This document shows, piece by piece, positions 7,257 through 30,753 of a stretch of DNA of 34,951 nt (position 1 is its first letter; each line of letters starts with the position of its first letter). Location: NCBI GenBank assembly GCA_013329255.1, contig DUKM01000088.1, forward strand, positions 34,839-69,789, in the 5' to 3' direction. Under the pieces are notes generated by a model. The model saw nothing but the letters and a program-made list of their open reading frames with translations. It made no database searches and was not told where the DNA came from. The DNA is from Candidatus Poseidoniaceae archaeon (GTDB lineage Archaea; Thermoplasmatota; Poseidoniia; Poseidoniales; Poseidoniaceae). The position numbers were made by a program, and so were the translations under genes.

Positions 7257-7943
7257 TTAAACTCCAAGGTATGGAGCGATGTCGAACAAATCTTTGCCCA
7301 TAACCACTGGAACTCCAGCAGCCTCGAATGCTAGTTTGGATGAATCCCGTGTAGGATTGAAGCCAATGAAATGGCCTCCATCAATACGCATTGAAAGATC
7401 CATTTCGGAATCACCCACACTGACGCAGCCACTTGCCTCGAGATTGTTCATGGCTAATAGCCGCTGAATAATTTCACCCTTACCAGTAGCATGAAGTCGG
7501 CAAATGCCCTCGTCTCCAAGCGTGTCATCTTCGTTAAATTCAAAGCCATTCGCAATCCAATCGTCGACCTTGAGCATGGCAGCGATGGAGGCAACAAACA
7601 AATCGACCCCAGCGCTGACAATGGCCACGAAAATACCCTGATCTTGGAGGTGCTGAACCAATTCTCGTGCCCCTTTCATCAGTTGCACACCAGCATAGGC
7701 CCTAAAGAGGTCTTCTCGATGGATTGGGTCTTCTATCGACTTCCATTTCTTGATGTCCAACCGCATGAATTCAGCATCTGATATTTCGCCATCGATGAAC
7801 CTCTGGAGGTTGGCACCATTGTCTGTTCCGAAGTGGTCATGGAGCGTGCGCCAAGAGCTGACTGCATCGACAAGAACACCGTCGCAATCAAACACAACAC
7901 ACGTCGTTTTAGTGAGCGGTGTAATGATTGGACCTTGTGCCAT
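7257..7943 (-). CDS. HAD-family phosphatase, SerB-like
   Basis: This 228-residue HAD hydrolase has the nucleophile motif FDCDGVLVD (Asp19 nucleophile, Asp21 acid/base). It also has a motif II region VAIVSAGVD, a GKGEIIQ lysine segment as motif III, and VGDSEMDLSM as motif IV. Cap-domain size and the motif II serine context resemble phosphoserine phosphatases, which complete serine synthesis. Substrate choice in this superfamily cannot be settled from motifs, so phosphoserine is the leading guess rather than proven. The gene converges on the polD small subunit with a 6-nt gap. It lies downstream of the giant surface gene, separated by a strong terminator, so it is probably expressed on its own. 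Confidence 0.85.
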   Translation of the reverse strand: MAQGPIITPLTKTTCVVFDCDGVLVDAVSSWRTLHDHFGTDNGANLQRFIDGEISDAEFMRLDIKKWKSIEDPIHREDLFRAYAGVQLMKGARELVQHLQDQGIFVAIVSAGVDLFVASIAAMLKVDDWIANGFEFNEDDTLGDEGICRLHATGKGEIIQRLLAMNNLEASGCVSVGDSEMDLSMRIDGGHFIGFNPTRDSSKLAFEAAGVPVVMGKDLFDIAPYLGV

Positions 7944-8174: not shown

Positions 8175-8726
8175 TCAAGCCTTGACGTCGTATGACAAAC
8201 CAGTCCAGGAGCGCAGGAGCGCACCTTGTCCAACGCTTGGAGCGTAGGATAGAGTGATTGTCACTTCAGTCAATGGCGTGCCATCAGGTGCGTGGGTTCG
8301 CACGAAGATGGTGTCTCCGGTATTGAAGGTCGAGACAGAGTCGCTTCCTTCCTTGTTCACCTGGTCGACAAAGGTGATGAATGCATCACTGTTGTCGGGG
8401 TTGAACCCGTAGACACCGTTCGTGTCCGCCATGTTCGCTTCTTCAATCGCTGTGTTTCCATCAGCGTCTGTGTAGATCACACGGAGCACAACTGCTTGTG
8501 TAGCCAAGTCGGTTTCAGCCGACTGCACGGTAATTCGCCAGTGACCGGTTTCAGCATCAAAGCCGTCGATGTCCTCGATGTCGAAGGTGATCCGAGGAAC
8601 ACCCTTGACGTCAGTTTCAGCGAGGCTGCTTGCCCAAACGTAGATCACACCGGAGAGAACGACGGTGATAGCGACCATCAAGATGGTAGCAATCACTGGG
8701 CTCACTGCGACGTCACTGTCAACCAT
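8175..8726 (-). other. C-terminal prepilin/archaellin-type module of the giant protein
   Basis: The last 183 codons begin at an in-frame ATG (8726) and read MVDSDVAVSPVIATILMVAI onward. This is the class III signal/H-domain of archaeal type IV pilins (Pilin_N, formerly DUF1628). A beta-rich domain of about 150 residues follows, with the family pattern VPRITFDIED, HWRITV and FNTGDTIFVRTH. On its own it would be a normal-sized archaeal pilin. It is joined in frame to the preceding giant with no stop between. No good SD precedes the internal ATG. Prepilin-peptidase cleavage near DVAV, on the cytoplasmic side, would split the two parts. Cleavage is inferred and has not been shown. Confidence 0.75.
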
Positions 8727-11700
8727 GGTCTCGGCGACTTCTTCTTCATCATCAGCACGGCGGCTGGAGAAGGCAAGTGCGCTCACGAAGAGACCGGTGA
8801 GGCTGACCACAACGATGCTTGGTGCGAACGATGGGACCGAGCTGGCTCCGATTGTACGAACAACGCTTGGTAGCGGTTGTCCAGTAGCTTCGAAGTTAGC
8901 AGGTGGCTGGTTTGCGTGGTTACAGACGGATCCATTCTCGAGCGACGTCATTCGGTTGTTACACCAGTTGCTGTCTTCGAGAAGTGGTCGGCGTTCGGAG
9001 GTCTGAGTAGCGTTGCTACCGTACTGTCCAGGCTTGGACCAGTCAGCGCCCTGGATGCCGTTGTTGTTGGCACGGTGGGATGCTGGGTCGTCGGTCTGGA
9101 AGCGGTCCGAAACTGCTGCAGTCAAGTCACATGGGTCGTTCAAGCAAGTCACAACATCCATTTCAACCCACACATTGGTGGTGTCCTTGGTGATGTAGAC
9201 CATTTCGTCGAAGGCCACATTCGTTCCATAGGATGGAACGGTGTAGTATCGAGTTTGCTCGTCCTCAGTGTGGCCGTCCGAGTGGAAGGTCACAGCAAGC
9301 ATGTGATCGTAGGTGAACGGTCCTTCGTCGCCACCAGCGCCGACCTTCACAGTAACCGGCACGTAGGTGCCTGTCATGATGTTGGTCACGCCGTTGAAGT
9401 CGAAGCCAGAGAGGCTGTCTAGGTAGTAGTCAGCGACTTGCTCACGAACGTTTTCGACACGGACACCGATTTCGATGTCATCTTGGCCTTGTTGGTAGGC
9501 TGCGATTGGCATCAAGGTGGTGTCGTAGTTTGGCACGTAACTTGGGGCTGTTGCGGTGTCCTCGAGGACCAAGCGGATCTTACAGAACTCGGAGCCAGAT
9601 GGTCCGATTTGGTGGATACCGTTGTCGTTGAGGTAATCGATTTCCCAATCCTTAGCGTTGGTCGTTGCGTCAGGAATCAGTGTGAACACGAGTTTGTCCA
9701 CAACGATGGTTGTCGTGAAGTAGTTCGTGTAAGCACATTGAGACGTTGGCTCAACGGTCCAAGTGAGGTCAGAGAGGTTGTGGTCAACATCTGTCATCAC
9801 GGAGCTTAGGTCGTAGGTCAAGTTCTCGGTCGACAAGTCGTCTTCCATCAAGCTGATCTGCCATGGTGCTGCAGGGATGGAGCCGTTTCCGGCTTCCATG
9901 ACCGTACCGTTCTGTCGGTCCCATGTTGGGATAACAGGTGCGTCGTTCACTGGAGCAACGGAGAAGGCAACTTCGTAAGGAGTTGCTTCACTGTTTGCAG
10001 CAGCGTCGTCAGCCAGGGTGAGGGTCACCGTACAGGTTCCACCGAGTTCGTTGTTCGTGTTCTCGGTGATCACAAGTTCGTTCAGTGCGTTCACTTCAAC
10101 AGTGAATGCGATACAGTCAGCAGGAATGCTTGCATCCCAATCGTAGACTTGGCGGTCGGGCGTTTGCTCGTTAGCCATGTCACGGATGTAGGACTTGGAA
10201 GCGTTTGACACGTTTCCAAGGAACTTGCTGTGCACACCAAAGCCTTCAGCCAAGATGTTGGTGTAGGCGTCGTCTTCAGAGAAGATTGGCAAGCAGTCAG
10301 TTTGTTCCACGTTGCAGATCACAGGTGCGTCGTTGACGTTGAGAACCTCGAACGAGATGTTCTTGGTGTCGGTCAATCCGTTGCTGTCAGTCACAGTGAA
10401 CTCGTAGTCCATGGTACCAAATTGGTCGTCCATTGGTGTGATGGTCACGGTGTGTCCGTTCTGAGCCCAGTCAACGAGTACGTTGGCGTGAGCGACAATG
10501 TTTCCGGAGGTCGAGACCCACGAGAGGCTCGCCTCTTCGTCTTGCACGTCGTCAGCCATGTTGGTCAGGCTGAAGGTGTAAGCACCAGAGTCTTCGTCAA
10601 CAATCACGTCAGCCAATTCAGCCTGAATTTCTGGGCAGGCACGGGCCATGTCCATGTTCAGGTTGACGTTGGTAGCAAGTGAGACGTCTTCAGTTGTAGC
10701 CCAATCGTAGGCACAGTCTGCTTCGGTCTTGATCATCACGTCGTAGTTCTTGGCGACGCTTGGTGTGTTGCTGCCCTTGTAGGAGCGGTACACAAGCACT
10801 TCGTCAGAGATTGCACCGGAGGTCAAATCGTCGTGCGTTAGCTCGACGGTCATGTATTCGGTGAACGACTGGATGGTGTTGCTGGCGTCGATGGTCTGAG
10901 TCGGGTGAACCGTGCTCACATCAGCGGTGGTCTCGCCTTGAACGATTGCCACGATGTCAACTTGGCTAGGTGTTCCACCCATTCGAGAGAATGGGATAGA
11001 AATCTCAGCGAAGTCAGTCGAGAAGTCCATGTCCACTGCAGCGGTGCTGAGTGAAGTTGGGCCCCAACCGAGGAAGCCGTAGCTGTACAAGTCGTAGGAG
11101 GATTCACTGTCTGCCCAAAGCACGTAGTTTGCTTGGAACGGCAAGTTGTGTGCTCCACCGAGGTTGTATCCAACGCTGCTTCCTGCGCCATCGACACTGA
11201 GGTAGATGAGCAAGTCGCTTGTTGAGAGATCAACACCGCTTAGACCGAAGTACAGGTCGTCGCCTTCAATGTAGGTAACTCCCATGTCGCTGGTTCCGTC
11301 GCCACTCATGATACCTGGCATTGCATAGCCAGATGGGTTGAGGTCGTTTCCGCCATTCCAGTCGTCCATCGATCCGTCAATACTCATGACTTCAGGTTGG
11401 AAACTTGTGGACACGTAGGAAGCACGAGACCCGTCGGTCGACTGAATGAGCATGCTGACTTCCTTGGTAGGAGCAGCAGTCAAGTGGGTCGAACTCATCG
11501 AGAACAAGTTTGCTTCATCAATGGTAGCGGATGCATCGACAATCAACTTCGAGGCGTCAATCGTGTTACCGATCGAGGTCACGTAGGCATTGGTGCCAGC
11601 GTTGATTTGGTTGGTCGAAGCGGTCCAGGTCATGTTTTCAACAGTACCTTGTGCTTCCACGACTTCAAGAGCAGTGGTTGCATCAACCGAGCCTCCGTCC

Positions 11701-14700
11701 CAACGGAACGGAGAGTTTTCGACGTACATACCGACGAGTCCAGAGGCGTTCATTGGGTAAACCCAAACATCATCGGAGTCGATGACATAGAGTCCAGTTC
11801 CAGTTGCGCCACCATCGACGTTAGCGGTGATTGCACTCACGGTTGCGTCATCCACGTAGGCACCGTATGAGGTACCAGTGAGGGAAGCATCGCCAGTGAG
11901 GTAAAGTGCACCGCTCGTCTTGGTCACACCGTTTTCGTAGCCGCTCACGGTGGTGCCCGACAAGGTCAGGGAGTCACCGTTAAGGTCGTCAGCGTCAATT
12001 CCGTTGGTGGATGCAGTTCCATCTCCTTGGAGGGTGGAGCCAACATCAGAAACGTCACAGTTGCTGATAACCATTGCAGCGTCAGACAGGGTCACGGAGT
12101 TGTTCGCCGAGTTGATCGTCACACCAGCACAGTCTTCCATAAGGAGACCGATAGCGTTTGGAGCAACACGTCCAGCGGACAGCTCAATGGTGTTGTCAGC
12201 AATGCTTGGGCCAGTGTAGCCGCCAGCAGCGCCGCCTTCAACCATGAAGACATCAGTACCACCGTCACCGTATGAGTCACGGAGCGTCAACGTGTAGCTT
12301 CCAGCATCGCTGTATGAGGCCAGTGGTTCGTAAGCAGTGTTGCTTGCGAACGTATTGGTTGGCCACGAATCAGTCGTACCGTCAGGCTTGTCGATGGTGA
12401 TGCTTGCTTCATAGCCCCACGAATCAGTCTGGACGTTAACTGCCATGACCTTGCCTGTAGCGAGGGTCACAACACAGGTTGTAGGTCCAGACGAGTAACT
12501 GTAGGCTCGGATGGTGCAAAGCGAACTGGTTGGCGCTGGAGGGTTGGTCATCGAGTCAAGCACGATACCGCCGTCAGCGTCAATCAATGTGTTGCCTGTC
12601 ACGTCACCATAGCCACCGTTGATGTCGACACCAGCGTATGCTGAGTCGCCGGCACCGTTGATGGTGTTGCCAGAGACTGTGAAGTCAAGGGCGTTCACCA
12701 TGTAGATACCGCTCTTCAGAGTGTTGATCGTGTTGTCCGCAATGATTGCACCTTCATGGTCACCAGGGTAGAATGCAACTGCACCGTTGCTGGTATCACC
12801 AGAGTTGAAGGTGTTTCCAGAGATCTCTGCGAAGTCAGCGTCACCGTTGGTGTATGCCCAGATGTCGGCGATTTCGCCACCATCGTTGAACGTGTTACCA
12901 GAGATGGTGATGTTGTCTGCGCCGACCACACCGTTGTGGTAACTGTAGTAGGTCGCACGCTCAAGCATGATACCAACACCACAGTTGTTGAAGGTGTTAC
13001 CGTGGATGAGACCGCTGTCACCACCAGACACCTGCATGCAGATGTCGGAGACTTGGATAGCGTTGTTCAACGAGGTGTAACCCTTGTAGTGCGTAATCGT
13101 CGAGTTGGTGAGCGCCAAAGTTTCGACTTCCCATTCGTAATTATTTGCATAATTATATCCATTCGCGATATCAATCGTTGCGACATTCGAGAAGATCGAG
13201 TTGTTTGCAACAAAGTTGTTCATGCTGTAGAAGTAGTCACCAAGTTGGATACCGTAAGGTTCGCTTGTGTCTTCATCAACTGCGACACCGTAGAGGCCAC
13301 CGTCGTTCATGTAGAATCCACTGCCACCAGGGCTCTTGCTGTACCAGCGTTGATTTCCGTAGAAATCATAGACGCCAGTTGAAAGCAGAGTCGAACCGTT
13401 GAAGTTGTAATCCGTGTTACCGTTGAGGTAGATGTACGGAACGTCAACCATGACGATCTGGTTAGCCAGGTTCGCTCCAACACCACCATAGTAACCGTAT
13501 TCGGTCACAGTACCGCCATCACCGTCGCTTAGGGTTCGGGATCCCGAAGTCGAGAACGAACCTGAACAAGGTGAAACAGTATCGTATGCGGTGCTCGAAG
13601 AGTACCAGCAAACACGGTGTGCAATCTTGGTCGTCAGAGCAACTGACTCTGCGTTTCCAGATGCATCGCTGAGCGTAACGCCAGTGCTAGCATAACGGAA
13701 GTCAGCAACTGTGTTGTTGTAGAACACTTCTGCAACGGTCATTGCTTTGTATCCACTGAGCGATGGAATGGTCTTTCCGGCCTTGTCCACAGTAGCGGTC
13801 ACGAAGGTAATGTCGTTTGCTACACCCATCGAGTTGGTGAGTGCTGCACCCGCTGCGCCGCCATCGGCGTCAAGGAGGGTAACAGTAGCATCAGCGACTG
13901 GATTCGAGTCAGCAGTGAGGGTCACGTCAACCGTACGCATACGGGTGAACAAACCTGAGCCTGTGACATCGACGGAATCAACATCGACGGTTCCTTCGAT
14001 GAACTCAATCATCGAACTTCCGCTGATCGCAAAGTCCTTGCCATTCGCCATGGTCATGTCGGTCAGTGTAAACTCACCTGAGCCAGCGGTTTCGATACCA
14101 ACTGCGTTGGTCGAAATCGTCATGCCGGACATCGCGACAGGGTTGTCAGTGTTTTGTCCGTACTTGAACGCTGCACCTGCGCTGTTGGTGACCGTACCTG
14201 TGACATCTCCAGAGATGTCCTTAGCGTAGTAAACACCAGCCGAGGTTTGGCTGTCAAGGTCGAGGTTAGCAAGTTCAATTGAACCGGATGCAGAACTGCC
14301 AACGAGGACACCGTATGTGCCGCCGTTCACTTCCAATCCGTCAACAGTTGCTGCTGATTGACCTGTCACTTCAAGACCGGCATCGGTTGGGGAGGTGACC
14401 GCGATGTTCTCGAAAGAACCTGCAGCGTATGCTCCGCCAATTTCAATACCATTTTCAGCTCCAGTGATGGAACCATCCTTGAACATAGGCGTACCAGATT
14501 CTCGGACGTAATCACCAAGGGTGCTTGCATCGTTGCCTGAACGAGCGACAAACTCCAAGCGATCTTGGAAGTTGTCAGCACGGTTGTGCAGGACGTCAAT
14601 GTACAGCGAAACCTTCGAGATGTTCGAAGCCGAGATGTCAACGGTAGGCATGGTCAAACGGGCACCTTGTCCTGGACTCATGTAGTATGAGTACGCATAG

Positions 14701-17700
14701 TCAAGGCAGACGTTGTAACTGGATGGGTATCCGCCACCATAGCCTTCAGGAGGCGTGAATGGTCCGTTGGTACCACCGTGGTAAGAGGTGTAGTAGTAAC
14801 CCCAGTAGTGGTACGGGTAGTAAGCGTAGGAACCAGTTGGGCTAACGCCGTCAATGTTTTCCCAGCCGAAACCGAACTCAGAAGGAGCTTGGTAGTAAGC
14901 AGGGTAAGACGGGGTCGTTCCGGGACCACCAGGCCAGTAGCGCCACATGTAGTAGAAGTAGCCCTCAAAGCTCGATGGATAGTTTGGTCCGTACGAGTAA
15001 CCGTAGTAGTCACACGACCAACTTGGTACACCACCGGTAGCACCAGCAGCGTAGGCAGCGGTTGAACCGACGCCGGATGCTGGGTCTGCAGCACTGTATG
15101 GGTAGTAACCGAGGTCAGATGAATCAGTGATGTTCCAGGCGTTGCCGTTGTCATCTTCCAATTCAATGTTGTATCGGTCAGTGATCATGTAGTACTTCGA
15201 GGTAGCGTAGTTGTATGTTGGGTGAGCGTTTCCGCCACCGTAGATACTGTTCCAGCCAACTTGGAGGTAGTCTTCCGAGAGGTAGGTCGACAAGTCGATC
15301 TTGTAGGTTTTCCAACCAGTGTTTTCACCGCTGAGCAAAGTACTGCGGTAAACGGTTGGGAGTGACATACCACCGTAGACGTCGACACCAACGGTGTTGT
15401 CAGTCGAGGTGAATCCGTCAACCTGTGGAGCGCCGTTGTAGGATTGGATACCCACAGCTGCGTTCTTCACGATCACGTTCTCGATGGTACCACCAGAGGC
15501 TTCCACCCAAAGGGCGGTTCCGGTACCTGATCCTGCTTGCTTGGAGTTGATAATGCTGGAGTCTGCGATGTTCACAGTTCCACCCATTACCTTGACCGTA
15601 GCCATCTCAGAGTTCGCAGTGGTAGCGCCGAAAACTGTAGCGCTGTTCTTCATGATGAACGTAGCACCGTCGCTGACCATGAGGGCAGCGCCAGTAGCGG
15701 AGTCTTGAGCGACATCACGTAGGGTTCCACCGTCAAGTTCGAGCGTACCATCTTGGATATCCATGTGGAGTCCATAGGTGCTTGAAATTGCTTTCACTTC
15801 GCCGACTGCGCCGGTGTCAGGTGAAATGGTAACCGTAAGCGAACCGCCATCAGAGATGTTCAACCAAGGGGTGCTTGTTGCTGTGCTTCGAACCTTTAGG
15901 ACCGATCCCAAGAGGATGATGTTGCATCCATCGAGTTCAAGATCTGCTGCCAAGGTCATTGGCGTGCTGTCAAAGACATATGCATTCAATCCAGCGTTGT
16001 AGGTCGTAGCAAGGGTTGTGTTAGCCGCAATCCATGCGCAGTCCATACCTGCTGCGTCGAATTCCACAGGAGCGGGTTCAAGCAAGAGATCGATTGTGTC
16101 TCCCACGGTGTAGGTACCGTCTGTAGGGTACCATGAATCCGTGTGAAGGGTTTCGTTCTGTCCTGCTGCACCGAATGCTCGCAAGTTGTGGTCGTCGTAA
16201 GAGTTACCAGATTCGTCACCAGTAATGACCCAAACTGTGGCCATGCCCGTTGCATCGGTGATGTGAGACCCAACTTCGAAGATTTCGGAGCCAGATGAGT
16301 CAACAAGCGTAGCCGAGACGTAATGCCCCGACTTGTACACAATCGCAGCGACACCGTTGATGAGTGCGTTACGGTAGGTGTAAGCGCTTGCAAGTCCACC
16401 ATACCAGATTTCCGAAGAACTGGAGGTTGAGACCTTGCCATCAGATCCATCGTAGGCGGAGGTAGCTCCGTCAACGAGGACATGAATCAAACGGACATCA
16501 GCGTTGGTGTCAGCGTATGCAAAGTCTGCAAGGCCTGTACCCGAGGTTGTCACGTCAGATTGACCAACAGTCACAGTAGCGTATCGTGCGTAGAGCATTG
16601 GATTAACCGTGTTGCTGTGGGTGATGTCTGCATTCTCGATGGTCAACTTGGAAGGTGCAGCAGAGCATCCAAGAATACTGAAACCGGTTGCGGTTACACT
16701 GTTCATGTGAATGTTCCATCCACAGTCGTTCAAGGAAACGCTCGTAGCTTCCATGTTGTTCATGGAAACCAAGTTCGAGGTGATTGCGTTGCCAGTCATG
16801 GTGAATGTTCCCATGGTGACGCTGTCAAATGTACCTGGTTGAATACGGGTCATAGCGGTGTTACCAACGGTCACGTCGTCAAAGACAGCGCTGTCGCCGG
16901 ATGGTCCGTTTCCTGTACTCGATGTGCCACCAGGGGTCATGGTCAAGGATGCAGGTCCAAAGTCAACAGTCTTCATTGAGATTCCGTCCATTGCTTCAAT
17001 CGAAACAGTAGCGTAGTCATCAGCGTCGAAGTTGAACAAAGTAACTTCACTGCCACTGCCTGCTGCGGAAGCGAATGCGCTTCCGGTTTGGGTGGTGGTG
17101 GAAGAACCTGGTAGAACAGTCGTGACTGTAGCGGTTACGTTGCTAACTGTCACGGTTGCGAAGTCTACATCGATGAGGTTCACGTATGCGTTGGTCACGG
17201 TGGTGTTCTCAAGGAACAACGATCCACCAGTGGAACCTGCAACGTTAACGATTGCACCAGCGCCGGCGTTGCCGTCGGTGTTACAGTCCTTCATGACACC
17301 TTCAGTCAATGTAGCCATGGTGTCTTCAGCGAAGTCGAAACAGGACGAAGAAGCCCCATCGACGTTGAAGTCGCTCATGGAAACAACTGTGCCTTGTCCG
17401 CTTCCGTGTGAGAAAGCAGATCCAACGTTGGTGAATGTCACATGGTCCATCGTGAAGTTTCCAACGTTCGAGTTGGTGCTTGGCGAAGAACCGTGGCGTG
17501 AACCAGCGGAGATTGCAGCGTCAGTTGTGTTCTTGAAGTCAACGTAAGAGAAGACGTGACGGTCATCGGTGCCTGCAGCGCAAGCAGCGGTGAATGCCAT
17601 TCCAGTCCACTCAGCGCCGTCTGCACCCTCGAAGAGGATTGGGTCGGTGCTGTTGCCGTTGAGGGTCATTTGGTCGCATGTTCCATCAAACGAAATTCCC

Positions 17701-20700
17701 TTGCCAGCTGCGACTTGAATCACAACACCAGGTTGGATGGTCAAGTCTGCAGAAATGGTGAGGTAGTCGTTGCTTGGGTTGACACGGATTGGGCTGTCTT
17801 CCAAATCCCAAGTGGTATCTTGGGTGATGTCAGAACTCACGTCTGTTCCCTTGCCTTCGAAAGGCATGGTTCGGTAGTAAACACCACAGTCGAGGTTGCT
17901 GTTTTGGTAGCAGTAGTAAGTACCGTAGTACGACCAGTAAGGTGCGATTGTACCTGCACGAGCGTAGGTGCTCGACGAGTACGGCAACTCAGGCATGTTT
18001 CCATACCATGTGGTCATGCTGCGAACCAGTGCAGTGGATCCAGAGCTTACAAAGTGCATGTTACCATGTCGACCGAGGTTGATACGGTCGTTGGTGTCAG
18101 TGTAGTTGTAATCTGTACCGAAGTAGGTAAAGTTGAATCCATCAGGCATTGCGATGTTGTCAGCGCACTTGTTAGCCCATGTGTTCCAGTAGTAGTTGGA
18201 TGCACAGTAGTAGCCAGACGGTGTACCAGCAGAGGAACCCATGATGCCAGAGGCATCTGCATTCACCAAGCCAGAGAGGCCACGGTCGAAAGACTCGTAG
18301 CTGCTACCGGTCGAGGATGTCGAGATACGGTAGTTGGCTGGGTGGGGGTTCGTTCCGGTGATGTACTGGGTACTGGTACGATGACGGATGGTTTGTCCCA
18401 TGGTTCGTGTTTGATCCATGAAACCAACGGTTCCTGCGTCGTACGAGTTGGTACAAGCATCGTCGTACTTGTATTCGATTTCGTTTGTCACGTCATAGAA
18501 TACAGCTTGGTAAGTACAGGTGTCCGTGGTGGAGTAACCCATGTCTCGCCATTCAACGATAAACATCTTGTTTGGATCACCGACCGAGAAAGACTCGGTT
18601 GAGGTGGTCTGGGTGTTGATGCCGCCTGCGACTGCAGAAACGTCTTGAGCCTTCATGTAGTATTCAACAAAGTCTCCACGTTCTAGGTCTTCGATATCAG
18701 CGGACCAGTCACAGTTCGACAACTGGCATTCTGCACGGGTGCTGCCAGACTCTTGAGCCATGACAACAGAGGTCCAAGAACCAGCGGAGCCGCCATCAGG
18801 CGTTACACGGTAGTACATTGTTGGACCAACGCCTGCAGAGGTGCTCACGTTGAGACCTGCTGGTGGGTCGCCTGCATCGGCAAGTGTTGCGGAGATCGTT
18901 CGGTCCTTGCTGTGGGAATCAGCGAGCGCAGAATGGGTGAATTCAGGCTTGAACGTATCAGGTGTTGGTGCAACGTTACCAATTTTGTAGGTGACATCGC
19001 CGGTTGAGGCGATTCGGCCGTAGTATCCCATACCGAGAGCAAATCCGCTCCACTTGTAGTTGGTGACACCAGAGTAGGCACCAGCGTAGTAGTAAGCAGG
19101 AGAGCAGTCGTTGTAGGAACTGTATGGGCTGCGCCAGAAGTAGGTGAATCCATTGCTGGTCACGCAAAGTCGGTTGGCGTTTGTTCCAGCACCGGCGGTT
19201 TCGTTTCCGAATCCGAACTTGCCAAACATGCCGCCGTAATCGGAGCCGAGCGTGATCTTGTATGCATTGGTGTAACCATAGGACCGGCTGCTGTCAGCAG
19301 AGGTTCCGCCGGACAACGAATCAGAGATCGAAGTCGAGGTTCCAATTCCGACCATTGCAAACGCATTGCTGGAACTGTCATAGAGGTACATGAGGTTCAT
19401 TCCAGGGCCATTTGCAGCAGAGATGGTGAGGTATCCACCGTCATCAGAGTGCAGTTGGTCGATGTTCGACCGGGTTCCACCCATACCGTTGTATCCAGAC
19501 GAAGCGGTTGTTGTGTGTTGAACAATCCAGTTCGAGTAGAAGTAGTACGACGAGGAGTAGAAGCAAGAGTTGCTACCGGTTCCACAAGACGAGGTGTCGA
19601 ATTCGAAGTAGTATTCGTTGCTTCCGTCGAAGTGAGTCATCTGTCGGTCGAAGTATTGGTTAGCGCCAGGCGAGTAGTAAGCAGCAGCGTGGACATCGGT
19701 TGTCTTCACTGTGAGCTTCTTGTCGTCTCCAGCATCTGCAACATCTTCTACTGCGAAGTAGTAAGGTGTTGGAGTGGTTTGCGAACCTGTGAGGGCTGGG
19801 TCGTATCCAACGTTAGCACCGCCAGCGGTGTTAAGATCTTGGAACTTCCAGTAGTACTCGACGTAGTCACCAGCAGAGATTGTCGCCGTTGTAGCCTTGA
19901 ATTGGCACTCGGACGATGTTGCGCTGCAGGTACCAATGCTAGTTGCGGCGACGCTTGTGTACGAACCGTTGTTGAGTGCGTAGTTGAGCGTTGGTGCGTT
20001 AGCAGTGGTGGTGTCGATTCCAGACATGTCAGTGAAGGTCGTGAAGAATGTGCGAGCACCTTCAACGTACGAAGTCACGTCAGAGTATGGAACGAAGTTC
20101 GATAGAGGAGCGTCCGTATCTGAACCACCAGAGTAAGTGATTTGGATGTAGGAGTTCGACGAACCGCTGTTCAGTGTGTAACTGTAGAGGTAAGTCGAGG
20201 CAGACACTCTTTGACCGATACCGACGGTACCAGCGTTGGTTTGAGCCGAGGTGATGTACCCTGCTGCTGTGCCAGAAGCACAGGTTGTAGCAGAAGTACA
20301 AATGTCAGCGGTCTTCCAACCGTTGCTACCAATGGAGTACGTGTCGAAGGACGGACTGTTCCACAAGGAAGTGATCATTCGGCGAGAAGCGGCAGAGTTG
20401 TAGCTGCTTCCAGTGAGGATCTGGCTTGCGGTGAGTGCGCCTGAACATGTGCCAGTCGGCATCGTGTGGCTGTAGGATGACAACGTTGGTGAGCCACAGT
20501 TCTCGAGAACTGTTGCTGTGACTGACGTTGAGGTCGAGCCGGAGCGGTAGTTGAGGTAGGACTTCCAGCTGATGGCGTCAACAGTGGCGCCGGATGGAAG
20601 AGCGTTGCTCGAAGTGAATGTGTAACGGTGCCATGGCATGTAACGCATCTGCGAGTAGTACTTGTACGTGTACCGGTAGGAACTCGAGTAGCAGTTGCGG

Positions 20701-21728
20701 TAGTAGCGGTAGCAGTAACCACCAGCGTTGCTGTAGACCTTGATGGTCGGGTCAATAGCAAGCGGGAAAACACGGTCATCGGACATCAACCAGTCAGCTT
20801 CCACTGCTGTCGTAATGACAACCTGTGGGCCGAAAACTTGGATGAAGTAGGTAGCCGTGTATGGTTCATCGGACCCTTCTTCAATCACGGTAGGAACTGG
20901 GATCTCTGCAAGCAGTTCGCCAGTTTCCATGTGACGGATTTCAAGGGATTCCTGAGTTTGCGTCATGTCTTCGCCGAGCATTTCGTCGCCGAGGTAGAGT
21001 GCAAAACCAGATGGAATTTGGATGGTTTCCGAAAGACCGAACCAAGCAGCGTTTGGCTCAAGCACAGGTCGCTCGCGGATGACGAGGTTCTGCTTGAGTT
21101 GCGTTGACTCGACGGTGTAGTCGAGGTCAAAGCCTTCTGCAATCGGGTACCGTAGAACGTTACCGCCAACGGTCACGCCTTCTTCAGAAGGTGCGACGTG
21201 GTACGGTTGTGGCGCAGTGCCAGTTTCGTCCAGGGTTACGATCATTGGTGCGATTCCAGTGATGATAGGATCAACAAACTGGTTTGGTTGAACCGCAACA
21301 CCATAGGCCATTTCAGGAGCGAAATGTGTGCTGTAGGTGTTATCGGTTACTTCCCAACCGTTGGATGTTGCGACGACATTCAAATCAATGTCTTCCCATG
21401 CACCGCTGTCATCCATGAAGTGGACTGGCGTAGCGTGGTTTAGCTGCGCAAACTTGCCATCTTCAGTGATGTAGGTCTTGGTCGTTTGGTCTCTCATGCC
21501 GATCAGTTCATCGGATGGTTCGTGTTCGTAGTCAGTTGTCTTCACAGCTTCTGGCAGTGCAAAGAAATCATTCTCTGCTGTGGTCTTTGTATCTACAAAG
21601 TCCACGTCGCCTGCGTTGTTGTCGACGAACCCAGCCATAGGCATTAGGGCCATCAAAGCGCACAACAGCAGTGCGATGCCAATGCCGCTGAAGACTGACG
21701 TTCTCTTGGTGTTCTTATTTCCCAACAT
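8175..21728 (-). CDS. Giant 4517-residue multidomain surface protein ending in a type IV pilin-like module
   Basis: Predicted secreted adhesin-like giant. A signal/anchor helix is at residues 12-33. Residues about 75-335 resemble the module preceding DNRLRE domains in WapA/RHS-type wall proteins (TKTYITEDGK, FPLAIDPTIKV). A DNRLRE-like part runs to about 530, with Ig-like domains near 540-660 and 927-1055. Beta-helix blocks lie at about 1300-1770, 1920-2115, 2380-2590, 2840-3065 (NosD-like ISGNTF repeats) and 3165-3440. A Tyr-rich block is at about 2230-2353, a DOMON-like domain (SIDGSMDDWNG) at about 3440-3600, and cadherin-like repeats (NDAPVI) at about 3700-4090. A membrane helix (4304-4320), RR and an acidic loop precede a pilin-like module from about 4335. 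The ATG at 21728 has GGTGA 7 nt upstream. The frame is open throughout, with no sign of a frameshift. Domain borders are estimates by eye. Confidence 0.93.
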   Translation of the reverse strand: MLGNKNTKRTSVFSGIGIALLLCALMALMPMAGFVDNNAGDVDFVDTKTTAENDFFALPEAVKTTDYEHEPSDELIGMRDQTTKTYITEDGKFAQLNHATPVHFMDDSGAWEDIDLNVVATSNGWEVTDNTYSTHFAPEMAYGVAVQPNQFVDPIITGIAPMIVTLDETGTAPQPYHVAPSEEGVTVGGNVLRYPIAEGFDLDYTVESTQLKQNLVIRERPVLEPNAAWFGLSETIQIPSGFALYLGDEMLGEDMTQTQESLEIRHMETGELLAEIPVPTVIEEGSDEPYTATYFIQVFGPQVVITTAVEADWLMSDDRVFPLAIDPTIKVYSNAGGYCYRYYRNCYSSSYRYTYKYYSQMRYMPWHRYTFTSSNALPSGATVDAISWKSYLNYRSGSTSTSVTATVLENCGSPTLSSYSHTMPTGTCSGALTASQILTGSSYNSAASRRMITSLWNSPSFDTYSIGSNGWKTADICTSATTCASGTAAGYITSAQTNAGTVGIGQRVSASTYLYSYTLNSGSSNSYIQITYSGGSDTDAPLSNFVPYSDVTSYVEGARTFFTTFTDMSGIDTTTANAPTLNYALNNGSYTSVAATSIGTCSATSSECQFKATTATISAGDYVEYYWKFQDLNTAGGANVGYDPALTGSQTTPTPYYFAVEDVADAGDDKKLTVKTTDVHAAAYYSPGANQYFDRQMTHFDGSNEYYFEFDTSSCGTGSNSCFYSSSYYFYSNWIVQHTTTASSGYNGMGGTRSNIDQLHSDDGGYLTISAANGPGMNLMYLYDSSSNAFAMVGIGTSTSISDSLSGGTSADSSRSYGYTNAYKITLGSDYGGMFGKFGFGNETAGAGTNANRLCVTSNGFTYFWRSPYSSYNDCSPAYYYAGAYSGVTNYKWSGFALGMGYYGRIASTGDVTYKIGNVAPTPDTFKPEFTHSALADSHSKDRTISATLADAGDPPAGLNVSTSAGVGPTMYYRVTPDGGSAGSWTSVVMAQESGSTRAECQLSNCDWSADIEDLERGDFVEYYMKAQDVSAVAGGINTQTTSTESFSVGDPNKMFIVEWRDMGYSTTDTCTYQAVFYDVTNEIEYKYDDACTNSYDAGTVGFMDQTRTMGQTIRHRTSTQYITGTNPHPANYRISTSSTGSSYESFDRGLSGLVNADASGIMGSSAGTPSGYYCASNYYWNTWANKCADNIAMPDGFNFTYFGTDYNYTDTNDRINLGRHGNMHFVSSGSTALVRSMTTWYGNMPELPYSSSTYARAGTIAPYWSYYGTYYCYQNSNLDCGVYYRTMPFEGKGTDVSSDITQDTTWDLEDSPIRVNPSNDYLTISADLTIQPGVVIQVAAGKGISFDGTCDQMTLNGNSTDPILFEGADGAEWTGMAFTAACAAGTDDRHVFSYVDFKNTTDAAISAGSRHGSSPSTNSNVGNFTMDHVTFTNVGSAFSHGSGQGTVVSMSDFNVDGASSSCFDFAEDTMATLTEGVMKDCNTDGNAGAGAIVNVAGSTGGSLFLENTTVTNAYVNLIDVDFATVTVSNVTATVTTVLPGSSTTTQTGSAFASAAGSGSEVTLFNFDADDYATVSIEAMDGISMKTVDFGPASLTMTPGGTSSTGNGPSGDSAVFDDVTVGNTAMTRIQPGTFDSVTMGTFTMTGNAITSNLVSMNNMEATSVSLNDCGWNIHMNSVTATGFSILGCSAAPSKLTIENADITHSNTVNPMLYARYATVTVGQSDVTTSGTGLADFAYADTNADVRLIHVLVDGATSAYDGSDGKVSTSSSSEIWYGGLASAYTYRNALINGVAAIVYKSGHYVSATLVDSSGSEIFEVGSHITDATGMATVWVITGDESGNSYDDHNLRAFGAAGQNETLHTDSWYPTDGTYTVGDTIDLLLEPAPVEFDAAGMDCAWIAANTTLATTYNAGLNAYVFDSTPMTLAADLELDGCNIILLGSVLKVRSTATSTPWLNISDGGSLTVTISPDTGAVGEVKAISSTYGLHMDIQDGTLELDGGTLRDVAQDSATGAALMVSDGATFIMKNSATVFGATTANSEMATVKVMGGTVNIADSSIINSKQAGSGTGTALWVEASGGTIENVIVKNAAVGIQSYNGAPQVDGFTSTDNTVGVDVYGGMSLPTVYRSTLLSGENTGWKTYKIDLSTYLSEDYLQVGWNSIYGGGNAHPTYNYATSKYYMITDRYNIELEDDNGNAWNITDSSDLGYYPYSAADPASGVGSTAAYAAGATGGVPSWSCDYYGYSYGPNYPSSFEGYFYYMWRYWPGGPGTTPSYPAYYQAPSEFGFGWENIDGVSPTGSYAYYPYHYWGYYYTSYHGGTNGPFTPPEGYGGGYPSSYNVCLDYAYSYYMSPGQGARLTMPTVDISASNISKVSLYIDVLHNRADNFQDRLEFVARSGNDASTLGDYVRESGTPMFKDGSITGAENGIEIGGAYAAGSFENIAVTSPTDAGLEVTGQSAATVDGLEVNGGTYGVLVGSSASGSIELANLDLDSQTSAGVYYAKDISGDVTGTVTNSAGAAFKYGQNTDNPVAMSGMTISTNAVGIETAGSGEFTLTDMTMANGKDFAISGSSMIEFIEGTVDVDSVDVTGSGLFTRMRTVDVTLTADSNPVADATVTLLDADGGAAGAALTNSMGVANDITFVTATVDKAGKTIPSLSGYKAMTVAEVFYNNTVADFRYASTGVTLSDASGNAESVALTTKIAHRVCWYSSSTAYDTVSPCSGSFSTSGSRTLSDGDGGTVTEYGYYGGVGANLANQIVMVDVPYIYLNGNTDYNFNGSTLLSTGVYDFYGNQRWYSKSPGGSGFYMNDGGLYGVAVDEDTSEPYGIQLGDYFYSMNNFVANNSIFSNVATIDIANGYNYANNYEWEVETLALTNSTITHYKGYTSLNNAIQVSDICMQVSGGDSGLIHGNTFNNCGVGIMLERATYYSYHNGVVGADNITISGNTFNDGGEIADIWAYTNGDADFAEISGNTFNSGDTSNGAVAFYPGDHEGAIIADNTINTLKSGIYMVNALDFTVSGNTINGAGDSAYAGVDINGGYGDVTGNTLIDADGGIVLDSMTNPPAPTSSLCTIRAYSYSSGPTTCVVTLATGKVMAVNVQTDSWGYEASITIDKPDGTTDSWPTNTFASNTAYEPLASYSDAGSYTLTLRDSYGDGGTDVFMVEGGAAGGYTGPSIADNTIELSAGRVAPNAIGLLMEDCAGVTINSANNSVTLSDAAMVISNCDVSDVGSTLQGDGTASTNGIDADDLNGDSLTLSGTTVSGYENGVTKTSGALYLTGDASLTGTSYGAYVDDATVSAITANVDGGATGTGLYVIDSDDVWVYPMNASGLVGMYVENSPFRWDGGSVDATTALEVVEAQGTVENMTWTASTNQINAGTNAYVTSIGNTIDASKLIVDASATIDEANLFSMSSTHLTAAPTKEVSMLIQSTDGSRASYVSTSFQPEVMSIDGSMDDWNGGNDLNPSGYAMPGIMSGDGTSDMGVTYIEGDDLYFGLSGVDLSTSDLLIYLSVDGAGSSVGYNLGGAHNLPFQANYVLWADSESSYDLYSYGFLGWGPTSLSTAAVDMDFSTDFAEISIPFSRMGGTPSQVDIVAIVQGETTADVSTVHPTQTIDASNTIQSFTEYMTVELTHDDLTSGAISDEVLVYRSYKGSNTPSVAKNYDVMIKTEADCAYDWATTEDVSLATNVNLNMDMARACPEIQAELADVIVDEDSGAYTFSLTNMADDVQDEEASLSWVSTSGNIVAHANVLVDWAQNGHTVTITPMDDQFGTMDYEFTVTDSNGLTDTKNISFEVLNVNDAPVICNVEQTDCLPIFSEDDAYTNILAEGFGVHSKFLGNVSNASKSYIRDMANEQTPDRQVYDWDASIPADCIAFTVEVNALNELVITENTNNELGGTCTVTLTLADDAAANSEATPYEVAFSVAPVNDAPVIPTWDRQNGTVMEAGNGSIPAAPWQISLMEDDLSTENLTYDLSSVMTDVDHNLSDLTWTVEPTSQCAYTNYFTTTIVVDKLVFTLIPDATTNAKDWEIDYLNDNGIHQIGPSGSEFCKIRLVLEDTATAPSYVPNYDTTLMPIAAYQQGQDDIEIGVRVENVREQVADYYLDSLSGFDFNGVTNIMTGTYVPVTVKVGAGGDEGPFTYDHMLAVTFHSDGHTEDEQTRYYTVPSYGTNVAFDEMVYITKDTTNVWVEMDVVTCLNDPCDLTAAVSDRFQTDDPASHRANNNGIQGADWSKPGQYGSNATQTSERRPLLEDSNWCNNRMTSLENGSVCNHANQPPANFEATGQPLPSVVRTIGASSVPSFAPSIVVVSLTGLFVSALAFSSRRADDEEEVAETMVDSDVAVSPVIATILMVAITVVLSGVIYVWASSLAETDVKGVPRITFDIEDIDGFDAETGHWRITVQSAETDLATQAVVLRVIYTDADGNTAIEEANMADTNGVYGFNPDNSDAFITFVDQVNKEGSDSVSTFNTGDTIFVRTHAPDGTPLTEVTITLSYAPSVGQGALLRSWTGLSYDVKA
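14670..15040 (-). repeat. Tyr/Gly/Pro-rich low-complexity block within the giant protein
   Basis: Residues about 2230-2353 contain roughly 28 tyrosines in about 123 residues, with Gly, Pro, Ser and Trp in short motifs such as YAYYPYHYWGYYY. It lies between a beta-helix block and a jelly-roll-like segment. It probably forms a flexible or self-associating aromatic segment. A smaller Tyr-rich stretch occurs near 20640-20720. Confidence 0.7.
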
Positions 21729-22144: not shown

Positions 22145-25100
22145 TCAGTAATCCCAATCTTTGTTCTCTTCGTCATCTCCACCACGGGAGAGGATGAATG
22201 CGCCAACAACGAAGGCTGCGATGACAACGCCAGCAATGGCGCCCCAAGCAAGTGCTGGGATTTCTCCTTCAACAACGTCGCCGGTGGTGTTTGTGCCATC
22301 ATCGACGTTGGAGGTGTCTGCATCTCGTTGGTAGTCAATGCTGTTCAACGATGGTGCTGCTGCTGTGTTACCAAGCGCATCGACTGGTACCGCTGTGAAG
22401 TGGTACGTGTAGGTACCGCTAGCGGTAGGCTTGTCGATTTCCACATCAGTCGTAACGGTCGAAGCACAGGTGGTTGGCATGTTAGCTGCATCGAAGGTGC
22501 CACGTTGGTAGCACACGTTCCAAGATGCGACATCGGCGGTTTCGCCTGTTGCGTCCCAGTTCACGATCCACTTCTCGCCGTTTTCTGACACTGACATGTC
22601 CATAGCGGAGACGCCTCCGTCAACTGCTTTGTCAGCAGTAACGTTTGCAACACCCTTTGGGGTGCTGCATCCAACTTCGTTGCAAATCTCGACAACAACG
22701 TTGTAGAATGCACCGTGGTCGGTGTTCGATCCTGAGTAGGAGAAGGTGCTTGTTCCAACACCAAGTCCAGTGGTGAACGCATCGGTGCAGCCAGCTTCGC
22801 CTTTACAGATGGTGACGTCGATGCTGTCGGAAGCGAGCATAGTGCCGTCAACGTTCCAATTAAGGACAATTGCTCCACCCTTTGCTGCTGCTGCGCTGAA
22901 TCCAGTGATGCTTGCATCAGGGACATCTGCTTGAGCGAGTGAACCGCCCATGAGCACAAGAGCGCCTCCTGGGAGCACTGGCCTGTCTGCAGCGAAATCG
23001 TACTCGAACATCTCGGTTGTAGCGTCAACATCGACGGTATCGGAAGTAAGCAAGGCCCAAGTTCCTGCATCGTTAACGTACCAGAGCGAAGTTGCTCCGA
23101 GGTCCTTAGCCACGGTGACATCCATCGATTGTGTGAGGACGTCAGAAGCGGAGAAGGTGGTACCTGGTGCGTAATCCACGGCGCCGACTGCGCTGTAGGT
23201 TCCAGAGTAGCCTGGAAGTTCCTTGTTGGCGAAGTTAGCGAGGTCTGCATCGACTGCAGTCAAGGAGAATGCGCTTGGTGCAAAGTACTTGATTGAGTAA
23301 GACACTGCGATTCCGGAAGCGGTTGTAGCCGAAGCACCACCGTTGTTCCAAATCGTGAGCATCAATTCTTCACTGGTCGATCCGCCGTTTGAATCGAAGA
23401 CTGTGAACGAGACCGGGAATGCGGTAACGTACGAGTCAAGGATTGGAACGGTGCAGGTTTGTGCGGTGGCAGAGCGCTCGCAACCTGGCAATTCAGTACC
23501 AGCGTTAGACCAGGAGTATTCCAAGCCCATTCCAGATGGTTCATCAACGTCAAAGACCTGAGCGGACATCTGAAGTGGTACTTCTTGATTGGTGAACAAT
23601 TCACCTTCATTCATCAAGTCCAAGGATAGGATGAGAGGGTTGTTGTTGCGAACGTCCACGGTCATGCTGCGATCGTTGTTGGATGGTCGTGCGTCATCAG
23701 TTTTTCCTTCGAGTGTTAGAACTGCGTCGAACATGTGTTCGCCTGCGTCAAGGTTCACCATCATGCAAGCATAGCCAGTGAGTTCGCCTGCGCCAGTCGG
23801 GTTGCCGTCAGCATCGAGTGTCTGAGCGGTACCAAGAGGCTTGTACATGTATGAAGGTTCAATACCAGTCTGGCAGGAATTAGCGACAACGGTGTTTTCT
23901 GTTCCCGTTGCATCGGTGACCATCAGCGTAACGTTCCATTCGTAGTTCACGCTTGCGTCGCTTCCTCGGTGTTCAACTTCAACGTGGAAGTAAGAGACAC
24001 CGACGTTGAGGTCAGCAGGAGCGTCGTCGCTCATCATGCTGGTCGGGTTTCCTGTCCCGTCTGCGTTGTAGCCTTGAGCAACGGTCATGCGAGCAACACG
24101 GATGTCGTGGTACGTGCTTGCGCTGCCGAGAATTTCATCTTCGTTGGTGTTTGGATAGGAATCCTGAGTGAATTCTTCTTCACAGACGTTGTTGTAAGTC
24201 TCGTTGTTGGTTGGGTCTGTTTCAATGCATGAATCCCATTGGCTGTATTGAGTGTAACTCATCAACTCTGCAGAGAGTCCGTAGGAAGCATCGGCGTTGT
24301 TTGCATCAAAGGTGAGGCTGCCGCCGAAGGTCCATTCGGTCATGTATGAGAGAACGTTTCGGGTTCCGTTGGTGATCGTTGGTGGGTCGGTCGAAACGTT
24401 GGTGAACACTTCAACAGTGGTGGAACTTCCAACTGCGACGTCATAGAATGCGTCAGCGTACAAATCTGTACCACTGTCGGATTGGAGGGCCGTGATGTCG
24501 CCGCTGCCCTTGAGGCGAACGAGAACGTCTCGTGGATTGAAGGTGTCAGAGCCGTTTGCGATAACAGTCATTGTCCAAGCCTTGACGCCTGAACCAGATT
24601 CTGCGGCTTTGCCACTGTCCCAAGACAGATCGACTTGAATGTCATACCAGTTGACGACGCTGACCTCGATGGTCTGTGCGTCGTTTCCTGCGTCTGCGTC
24701 AGATGGCGTGTCTGCAACAACTTCGATGATGTAGTCACCAACGATTGGCGTCCAGACAATTGGGTTGCCTTGGTATTGGAGGGTGTACTTGCCGCCTCCT
24801 AAGACGCTGCCTGCAGTAAGTGGATTGGTAATGGATGAGAAATCACAGCCTTGACCACACATCACGTTTGCGTTGGAGTACGAGAGATCGTTTCCAGCAG
24901 CATCCTTTGCGAGCATGGTTGGGTTGCCGTTACCATCGGACAGCCACACGTTAACGGTGTAAGCCAATTCGGTGATATCAGCATCGCCGCTGTTCTGGAT
25001 GTAGGCTTCGAATCCTGTGTCTTCGCCTGCATTCAGGGTGTTTCGGCATCCTGCATTTGTACAGGTGGTTTCTTTCGGGCTGGTAATGGCGATGACTTCG

Positions 25101-25228
25101 GCATCTGCTCCCGCACGGGCGCTGCTGTCGTCAACTTCAATGGTTTCTTCAAGCTCGGTGATGTCAATACTAGCCAGTAGACTTAGCATCAACATTGCAA
25201 CGAGAATCATAGGGGTTGTCTTGTTCAT
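22145..25228 (-). CDS. 1027-residue membrane-anchored surface protein with CARDB/Ig/Fn3-like domains
   Basis: An N-terminal signal peptide (about 1-20) is followed by a CARDB-like domain (about 47-195; GFEAYIQNSGDADITELAY). A second similar beta domain (about 196-300), a linker region rich in Asp/Glu/Asn, and a PKD/cadherin-like domain (about 530-640) come next. Two Fn3-like domains (about 772-865 and 872-965) then lead to one membrane helix (991-1013) and the acidic cytoplasmic tail SRGGDDEENKDWDY. Paired cysteines suggest disulfides in an extracellular protein. Likely a cell-surface structural or binding protein, ligand unknown. The ATG at 25228 has a perfect GGAGG 7 nt upstream (25236-25240), and TATAAATA lies at 25275-25282. 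It is followed by a strong terminator, so it is probably a single-gene unit upstream of the giant gene. Confidence 0.93.
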   Translation of the reverse strand: MNKTTPMILVAMLMLSLLASIDITELEETIEVDDSSARAGADAEVIAITSPKETTCTNAGCRNTLNAGEDTGFEAYIQNSGDADITELAYTVNVWLSDGNGNPTMLAKDAAGNDLSYSNANVMCGQGCDFSSITNPLTAGSVLGGGKYTLQYQGNPIVWTPIVGDYIIEVVADTPSDADAGNDAQTIEVSVVNWYDIQVDLSWDSGKAAESGSGVKAWTMTVIANGSDTFNPRDVLVRLKGSGDITALQSDSGTDLYADAFYDVAVGSSTTVEVFTNVSTDPPTITNGTRNVLSYMTEWTFGGSLTFDANNADASYGLSAELMSYTQYSQWDSCIETDPTNNETYNNVCEEEFTQDSYPNTNEDEILGSASTYHDIRVARMTVAQGYNADGTGNPTSMMSDDAPADLNVGVSYFHVEVEHRGSDASVNYEWNVTLMVTDATGTENTVVANSCQTGIEPSYMYKPLGTAQTLDADGNPTGAGELTGYACMMVNLDAGEHMFDAVLTLEGKTDDARPSNNDRSMTVDVRNNNPLILSLDLMNEGELFTNQEVPLQMSAQVFDVDEPSGMGLEYSWSNAGTELPGCERSATAQTCTVPILDSYVTAFPVSFTVFDSNGGSTSEELMLTIWNNGGASATTASGIAVSYSIKYFAPSAFSLTAVDADLANFANKELPGYSGTYSAVGAVDYAPGTTFSASDVLTQSMDVTVAKDLGATSLWYVNDAGTWALLTSDTVDVDATTEMFEYDFAADRPVLPGGALVLMGGSLAQADVPDASITGFSAAAAKGGAIVLNWNVDGTMLASDSIDVTICKGEAGCTDAFTTGLGVGTSTFSYSGSNTDHGAFYNVVVEICNEVGCSTPKGVANVTADKAVDGGVSAMDMSVSENGEKWIVNWDATGETADVASWNVCYQRGTFDAANMPTTCASTVTTDVEIDKPTASGTYTYHFTAVPVDALGNTAAAPSLNSIDYQRDADTSNVDDGTNTTGDVVEGEIPALAWGAIAGVVIAAFVVGAFILSRGGDDEENKDWDY

Positions 25229-30049: not shown

Positions 30050-30054
30050 CAGGA

Positions 30055-30753
30055 CTATTCCTCCTCTGTCCTCAATGTATCGCTGATGATCAGTCCGTCT
30101 TCCATGTGCAATACTCGATCGCACAACTCAGCAATGCTGGCATCGTGCGTTACAATGAGGAAGGTAGTCTGGTGTTCCGTATTGATTCGTTTTAACAAGG
30201 CGAGAACTTCGGCGGATGTTCTAGAGTCAAGGTTCCCTGTTGGCTCATCGCACAAAACGACTGCAGGTCGGTGCACAATCGCACGAGCGACAGCAACGCG
30301 TTGTTGCTGGCCGCCCGACAGTTCTGCTGGGCGATGTTGGCTTCGATCGCCAAGACCAACATCGACCAAGGCTTGTTGCGCCCGTTTCCTGGCTTCACCG
30401 GCAGAATTGCCAAGCAACAGCAAAGGCAATTCAACATTCTCAACCGCTGAAAGGACCGGCAAGAGGTTGAAGTCTTGAAAGATAAATCCAAGGTAATTCG
30501 AACGCATGATGGTCCGTTCATTATCGCTAATGCCAAACAATGGCTGACCGTTGACAACGACATTACCAGCGCTTGGCTCATCAATTCCAGAGAGCACGTT
30601 GAGCAATGTGGTTTTCCCACAACCGGAGGGGCCCATGATGGCAACCATTTCCCCAACTTCAAGCGAGACGTTGACACCCCGAACCGCTTCGATGGTCGAT
30701 TCGCCTGACGCATAGAGTTTCCAGACATCAGATGCCTTCATCGCAGTGCTCAT
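30055..30753 (-). CDS. ABC transporter ATPase, LolD/MacB type
   Basis: This 232-residue ATPase has Walker A GPSGCGKT (41-48), a Q-loop FQDFNLLP, signature LSGGQ (145-149) followed by QQRVAVARA, Walker B VVLCDEP (165-171) and the H-loop His203. The PTGNLDS sequence and overall pattern place it in the LolD/MacB/FtsE-like group that works with FtsX-type permeases, in agreement with the next gene. It energises the permease from the cytoplasmic side. The two genes are directly adjacent or overlapping and surely co-transcribed. The ATG at 30753 lies about 27 nt from a TTTATC element shared with the divergent MoaD-like gene, suggesting a leaderless mRNA. Confidence 0.95.
   Translation of the reverse strand: MSTAMKASDVWKLYASGESTIEAVRGVNVSLEVGEMVAIMGPSGCGKTTLLNVLSGIDEPSAGNVVVNGQPLFGISDNERTIMRSNYLGFIFQDFNLLPVLSAVENVELPLLLLGNSAGEARKRAQQALVDVGLGDRSQHRPAELSGGQQQRVAVARAIVHRPAVVLCDEPTGNLDSRTSAEVLALLKRINTEHQTTFLIVTHDASIAELCDRVLHMEDGLIISDTLRTEEE

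Follow-up and report, generated by a model that had tools for sequence, protein, structure and literature searches.

A giant surface protein of marine Poseidoniales with a pilin-type helix behind its membrane anchor

Does a giant archaeal surface protein carry a pilin of its own, and is that pilin cut from the chain or kept on it? The question is raised by a stretch of 34,951 nucleotides (the window) from a metagenome-assembled genome (MAG) whose named relatives belong to Ca. Poseidoniaceae (Marine Group IIa). Marine Group II reportedly outnumbers all other archaea in the surface ocean and lacks cultured members (PMC6461757); its attachment to particles has so far been argued from gene lists only. 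One open frame of the window starts with ATG, runs without a stop through the junction between a membrane anchor and a pilin-type helix, and lies among the following features.

8175..21728 (-), giant surface protein gene, 4517 aa in a single open frame
21618..21728 (-), hydrophobic N-terminal export signal, residues 1-37, from hydropathy; sequence MLGNKNTKRTSVFSGIGIALLLCALMALMPMAGF
10308..10601 (-), tandem-95-type repeat region, residues 3710-3807, a sub-threshold match to NF012211 (34.5 bits, cut-off 90)
9060..9434 (-), D1, membrane-proximal ectodomain, residues about 4099-4223, from homology to L083 and a model
8763..8831 (-), anchor helix (SFAPSIVVVSLTGLFVSALAFSS), residues about 4300-4322, from hydropathy
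8706..8762 (-), acidic loop RRADDEEEVAETMVDSDVA, predicted to be cytoplasmic, residues 4323-4341, with RR at the anchor's cytoplasmic end
between bases 8706 and 8705 (-), putative peptidase site A4341/V4342 at the end of the acidic loop
8613..8708 (-), predicted PilA-type pilin helix, residues 4341-4372, from Pilin_N, TIGR02537 and conservation
8178..8600 (-), D2, C-terminal beta domain, residues 4377-4517, from homology to a relative's secreted protein and a model
22145..25228 (-), upstream neighbour, a 1027-aa secreted protein with a C-terminal anchor helix and an acidic tail (GGDDEENKDWDY)
25448..30124 (-), next upstream, a 1558-aa FtsX/MacB-type permease
7257..7943 (-), downstream neighbour, a HAD-family hydrolase kept beside the giant

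The C-terminal stretch of the giant reads ...LPSVVRTIGASSVPSFAPSIVVVSLTGLFVSALAFSSRRADDEEEVAETMVDSDVAVSPVIATILMVAITVVLSGVIYVWASSLAETDVKGVPRITF..., where the anchor (about 4300-4322) is followed by RR (4323-4324), the acidic loop up to 4340, and then A4341-V4342-S-P-V-I. Pilin_N (PF07790) matches residues 4341-4385 with 30.4 bits (E 7.3e-7) on the whole giant and 35.7 bits (E 1.6e-8) on its last 228 aa, and TIGR02537 gives 31.5 and 36.3 bits; the curated cut-offs are 25.2 and 20 bits, respectively. The best sequence relatives of this C-terminus in the PDB are solved pilins of haloarchaeal type, with 8fj5 at E 9.5e-12.

The same fused C-terminus occurs in 11 of 11 genera of Poseidoniaceae and in 4 of 11 genera of its sister family (g15, g17, g19 and g21, where the parts follow each other as in Poseidoniaceae), altogether 15 genera from two families; the name Thalassarchaeaceae for the sister family is taken from membership of the order and from PMC6461757. 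Within Poseidoniaceae, 168 of 171 genomes match the giant's C-terminal 228 aa, and the frames are mostly 4,500-5,500 aa, or about 2,500 aa in genus g2. The third family of the class (21 genomes) yielded no fused form, only weaker matches of the strength of stand-alone pilins (best E about 1e-22). The closed MG-II chromosome CM001443.1 (G035, 2,064,136 bases in one contig) encodes a 4513-aa giant (L106) with the same module at its end. Strong matches with short frames, as far as they were checked, lie at contig ends or else in damaged assemblies, with a frameshift (G095), N-rich sequence (G100), an in-frame stop in one of two copies (G139) or a stop 51 bases from the contig end (G067). No clean stop between anchor and pilin was seen among these short frames, and family searches showed no genome with a detached pilin module. 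In-frame TGA/TAG marks in the matches of genus g3 look like the ordinary gene stop reached slightly early, as frames with and without such marks differ in length by about 3 aa. L064, L070, L091 and L092 belong to a second class of giants, about 5,100-5,500 aa long, in which the helix end differs slightly (VVYVWAAQLADTD); both classes are found in genome G103.

The gene order permease, 1027-aa protein, giant and HAD hydrolase is conserved at least partly. Homologues of the 1027-aa protein, for which a Pfam scan gave no match, adjoin giants in 23 loci with both families represented, and a HAD-family hydrolase match lies beside the giant in 120 loci. In four genomes (G035, G091, G095 and G109), the giant is found about 25-36 kb from archaellin genes on one contig.

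A first-pass annotation, made from the letters of the window, had claimed an in-frame fusion of a giant surface protein with a pilin-type module. This is borne out by the single 4517-aa frame and by the same fusion in independent genomes, and the residue numbers given there agree with the positions of the anchor, RR, acidic loop and pilin helix. Its identification of the helix as an archaeal pilin H-domain holds in view of the two profiles, both above their curated cut-offs, and the comparison with related genomes that it proposed finds the module fused throughout the Poseidoniaceae genera and in part of Thalassarchaeaceae, and in none of the 21 genomes of the third family. The topology it proposed, with the ectodomain outside, an anchor, a cytoplasmic loop and a helix leading out again, is also judged right as a prediction from the sequence.

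No 30-residue segment of the whole giant is more conserved than the pilin helix, which scores 0.988 against 0.851 for the next segment and a mean of 0.62 among 17 full-length giants. In the same set it contains 21 consecutive invariant residues, including the non-helical start VSPV, while the second longest invariant run of the giant comprises six residues, PSFAPS (4298-4303), at the anchor. The acidic loop keeps its charge across giants, but not its sequence. Most of the relatives examined encode a stand-alone major pilin (MKNENRNDEAVSPVIATILMVAITVVLAGVLYVWASSLAE...) and a second class of pilins, with which the giant's helix shares 29 of 31 and 16 of 31 residues, respectively. Archaellins are also present in relatives and have a helix of their own (AAIGIGAMIVFIALILVAAVAAAVIIQTAEKLQQ), unlike that of the giant. 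On these three comparisons, the sequence assigns the giant's helix to the PilA type of pilus. In Haloferax volcanii, only the six pilins with an almost fully conserved H-domain form adhesion pili, and swapping of the pilin H-domain abolishes pili (PMC4371748).

In G063 (L060/L306) and G092 (L038/L007), giant and major pilin carry an identical Tyr-to-Phe change in their helices, which fits packing in a shared filament, although the events are few. Gene conversion as the source of the shared helix is not supported, because giant and pilin helices of the same genome differ at 14-24 of 93 bases; in G063 and G092, the helix DNA of giant and pilin is as divergent as in other genomes. Strict co-evolution of the helix ends (WAxxLA) was seen in part only: Thalassarchaeaceae giants read ILLVAIT against ILMVAIT in their own pilins. 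No pilus genes were recognised near the major pilin of the closed genome in its listing of open reading frames.

The domains on the two sides of the membrane segment appear together elsewhere. D1 shares 49% identity across 128 aa with L083, a secreted protein of 685 aa from a relative, and D2 shares 48% across 142 aa with a domain found in smaller secreted proteins of the giant's genus and others (L083, L084, L085 and L087). In these smaller proteins, D2 stands directly behind D1 after a short linker, without a membrane hairpin or pilin helix, and the alignment places the giant's hairpin after an LPxVVxTI strand and ahead of the first D2 strand. Tandems of D1 and D2 were located at L083:181-2238 (-), L087:2715-4034 (-), L084:3-1880 (-) and in L085; in the two complete proteins, L083 and L087, D2 is followed by an anchor of their own at the C-terminus. 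The tandem predicts, independently of the pilin topology, that D2 of the giant lies outside next to D1, so that the two are probably extracellular partners, and this partnership makes the free release of a normal pilin less likely.

In an AlphaFold2 model of the 433-aa C-terminus, D1 and D2 are confident beta domains (D1 with pLDDT mostly above 80, D2 as a beta sandwich), and the linker, the hairpin and the relative placement have low confidence. Foldseek with this whole model returned generic two-domain beta-sandwich proteins only; with the pilin half, it gave weak matches to archaellins, FlaF (4p94) and FlaG (5tuh), the best being to an archaellum subunit (E 1.6e-3), with TM-scores of about 0.3-0.5. 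D2 was also considered as an ordinary pilin head and rejected, having no significant similarity to 31 stand-alone pilins.

The sequence around the putative cut site points in two directions. Among 121 distinct giants, the -1 Ala is invariant (121/121) and so are positions +1 to +9 (VSPVIATIL), the variation ending exactly at -1, while the -2 residue varies freely. A charged residue at -2 is reported to be critical for recognition of archaeal prepilins (PMC4371748). It is present in 15 of the 121 giants (12%), compared with 63 of 73 stand-alone pilins (86%), and the window's giant has an uncharged Val there (DSDVA/VSP). A PilA2-like register one residue earlier fits 40 of the 121, and 14 more only if Thr is allowed at -1; neither register fits 52 of them (43%), including the giant of the window. 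The leader before the H-domain is not a short N-terminal one: it comprises 4341 residues with an export signal and an anchor. With these signs on both sides, the giant is not filed as an ordinary prepilin, and cleavage by a prepilin peptidase at the loop is rated as possible to likely. A search of the open literature for prepilins that are cut internally, for giant fusions with pilins and for fusions with Pilin_N found no report.

An enzyme for such a cut at first seemed to be missing, as the PF01478 profile detected a prepilin peptidase in 0 of 60 genomes. This absence from the order is an artefact of the profile: at a relaxed threshold, PF01478 weakly matches a 340-aa membrane protein (e.g. 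L182:1204-2223 (-)) with an invariant D36 in AxxDxxxRRxxN and D170 in HGGADAK. They correspond to the pair of catalytic aspartates that defines family A24, of which the second lies in a GxHyD motif. PF06847 (Arc_PepC_II) is above its cut-off in two of the five members of the peptidase alignment and weaker in the other three, and PF01478 stays below its cut-off on them. By these motifs and profiles, the protein is classed as a divergent A24 prepilin peptidase. Searched with a model built from this alignment (A3), 35 of 36 Poseidoniaceae genomes and 8 of 24 Thalassarchaeaceae genomes contain it, the latter belonging to genera g14, g15, g17 and g19. In the genome of the window, the gene is split into two frames, between which part of the model is skipped (G000:C21:4816-6148 (-)), through either an assembly error or a broken gene.

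The peptidase, the platform and the giant are distributed together. In Thalassarchaeaceae, a match to the pilin module is found in none of 16 genomes without the peptidase and in 6 of 8 with it, and all 27 genomes with the fused module belong to the four genera whose genomes carry two or more T2SSF matches (TadC/FlaJ-type platform). T2SSF matches are also present in the window's own genome and throughout Poseidoniaceae. This co-distribution is an association; neither genomes nor genera are independent. Two genomes of Thalassarchaeaceae genus g14 (G173 and G192) have the peptidase and one T2SSF match each, with no Pilin_N match and no giant; G173 also gave a match to the archaellin family PF01917. 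The genomes that encode giants have archaellins and FlaF/FlaG-like proteins in separate genes as well. PF01917 (archaellin/FlaF-type) proteins of about 165 aa adjoin the archaellins; the giant locus is absent among the PF01917 matches listed, and the Pfam scan gave it no PF01917 match.

Three further proposals of the first-pass annotation are therefore to be narrowed. Of its complete pilin module, the helix is real, but the beta domain D2 is unrelated to the head of the stand-alone pilin. Cleavage by prepilin peptidase gains from the presence of the divergent A24 enzyme and from the invariant -1 Ala, and loses from the -2 rule, broken in both registers by 43% of the giants. As for the expected products, an anchored adhesin and a normal-sized pilin, the C-terminal part does have 176 residues, whereas a free ordinary pilin is less likely because D2 pairs with D1 in paralogues.

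The best explanation, to which we give a little less than even confidence, is that the giant is a Sec-exported anchored protein with a built-in pilin, probably cut, whose halves are held by D1-D2 and which is mounted on the pilus or tethers it. After export by Sec, D1 would lie outside and the anchor would cross the membrane inward; the acidic loop would be in the cytoplasm, and the PilA-type helix would cross back to D2, docked on D1 outside. The divergent A24 prepilin peptidase would cut the loop between A4341 and V4342 and free the N-terminus of the helix, so that the 176-residue pilin part could enter the PilA-type filament, or its base, beside the major pilin. The contact of D1 with D2 would keep the anchored part of 4341 residues, presumably an adhesin, attached to the pilin chain, and the giant would thereby be mounted on the pilus system or tether it, which would couple adhesin and pilus stoichiometrically. 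This explanation draws on the fusion across genera, the conservation of the helix and its 29/31 match, the paired Tyr-to-Phe changes, the invariant -1 Ala, the peptidase, the D1-D2 tandem and the co-distribution with TadC/FlaJ. Against it count the mostly lost -2 charge, a leader of 4,300 residues with a membrane helix that is unlike any known prepilin leader, the reliance of the D1-D2 contact on paralogues together with the low-confidence model of the hairpin, and the chance that the co-distribution mirrors joint loss of a whole surface system in genomes that are not independent. The version of a pilin polyprotein, where the peptidase cuts inside the giant's membrane hairpin, D1-D2, a pair that other proteins of these cells carry uncut, holds the chains and the giant is mounted one to one on a pilus subunit, is rather unlikely.

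A close rival, also raised by the first-pass annotation, is that the chain is never cut, and that anchor and pilin helix form a permanent hairpin docking the giant on a pilus or archaellum platform, much as FlaF/FlaG-type subunits, which have a beta-sandwich head on a pilin-like helix, link the archaellum to the surface layer. This is a doubtful but serious possibility. The relaxed -2 charge of the giants, kept in stand-alone pilins, would suit it; it would leave D1 joined to D2, as they are in the paralogues with the tandem, and the weak Foldseek matches of the pilin half include FlaF and FlaG besides archaellins. An uncut hairpin does not account as well for a -1 Ala and +1 Val-Ser-Pro that are invariant amid an otherwise variable loop or for a helix that copies the major pilin rather than archaellum proteins; its tether should hold the N-terminus of the helix out of the filament core, and PF01917 proteins of archaellin/FlaF type are already present beside the archaellins. 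The cut and the uncut chain both give a giant coupled to the pilus, and they differ at one bond.

It is improbable that the pilin part, once cut, leaves as an independent minor pilin whose function is unrelated to the giant, the fusion fixing equal synthesis only. The pilin-like size and PilA-type helix of this part and the presence of the peptidase would allow it, but D2 naturally adjoins D1 in several secreted proteins, the module was seen detached in no genome, and the -2 problem applies here too. Still less probable is a pilin-like helix that serves merely as the second membrane helix of a double anchor with no link to pili: some membrane helices are conserved for packing and the topology alone would be satisfied, yet 21 invariant residues with the non-helical VSPV, near-identity to a co-encoded major pilin (29/31) and absence of the giant module from genera without pilus machinery all speak against it. 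That assembly or annotation artificially fused two genes, for which the 74% completeness and 148 contigs of the window's MAG might be cited, is practically negligible, being refuted by independent genomes: the closed MG-II chromosome and 15 genera from two families show the same frame.

With this arrangement conserved across the order, Poseidoniales seem to couple their largest surface protein directly to the pilus system, whether or not the pilin part is cut off. The conserved giant-pilin protein offers a concrete object for testing cutting, location and the effect on particle attachment. An internal cut, if true, would mean that prepilin peptidase acts on polytopic substrates, which would broaden the definition of a pilin, and such proteins would escape scans that look for a short leader at the N-terminus. 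As the standard profile missed the peptidase of this order, the pilus systems of Poseidoniales may be under-annotated.

Among known systems, the small surface proteins of Poseidoniales with a D1-D2 tandem (L083, L084, L085 and L087) share both homologous domains and their order with the giant, but have no anchor, loop or pilin helix between the two. With the archaeal PilA/Pilin_N pilins (PF07790, TIGR02537; Haloferax PilA1-6; 8fj5 and 8gi2), the giant shares the H-domain SPVIATILMVAIT and a peptidase site before it, and where pilin 8fj5 reads NDDSAVSPVIGVILMVAIT, several giants read DDESAVSPVIATILMVAIT. In the giant, however, this helix sits behind 4,340 residues and an anchor instead of at the start of a short prepilin, the -2 charge is mostly lost, and the head is unrelated to that of the stand-alone pilin. 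The FlaF/FlaG stators and archaellins have a beta-sandwich head on a pilin-like helix, to which the modelled pilin half of the giant shows a weak fold similarity, whereas the giant's helix is of PilA type rather than archaellin type and its pilin part is covalently joined to the giant. The large PilY1/DUF2341-type adhesins of type IV pili (PMC4858521) are likewise large surface proteins believed to work with a pilus; they are separate proteins, whereas the giant has the pilin part in the same chain, behind its anchor.
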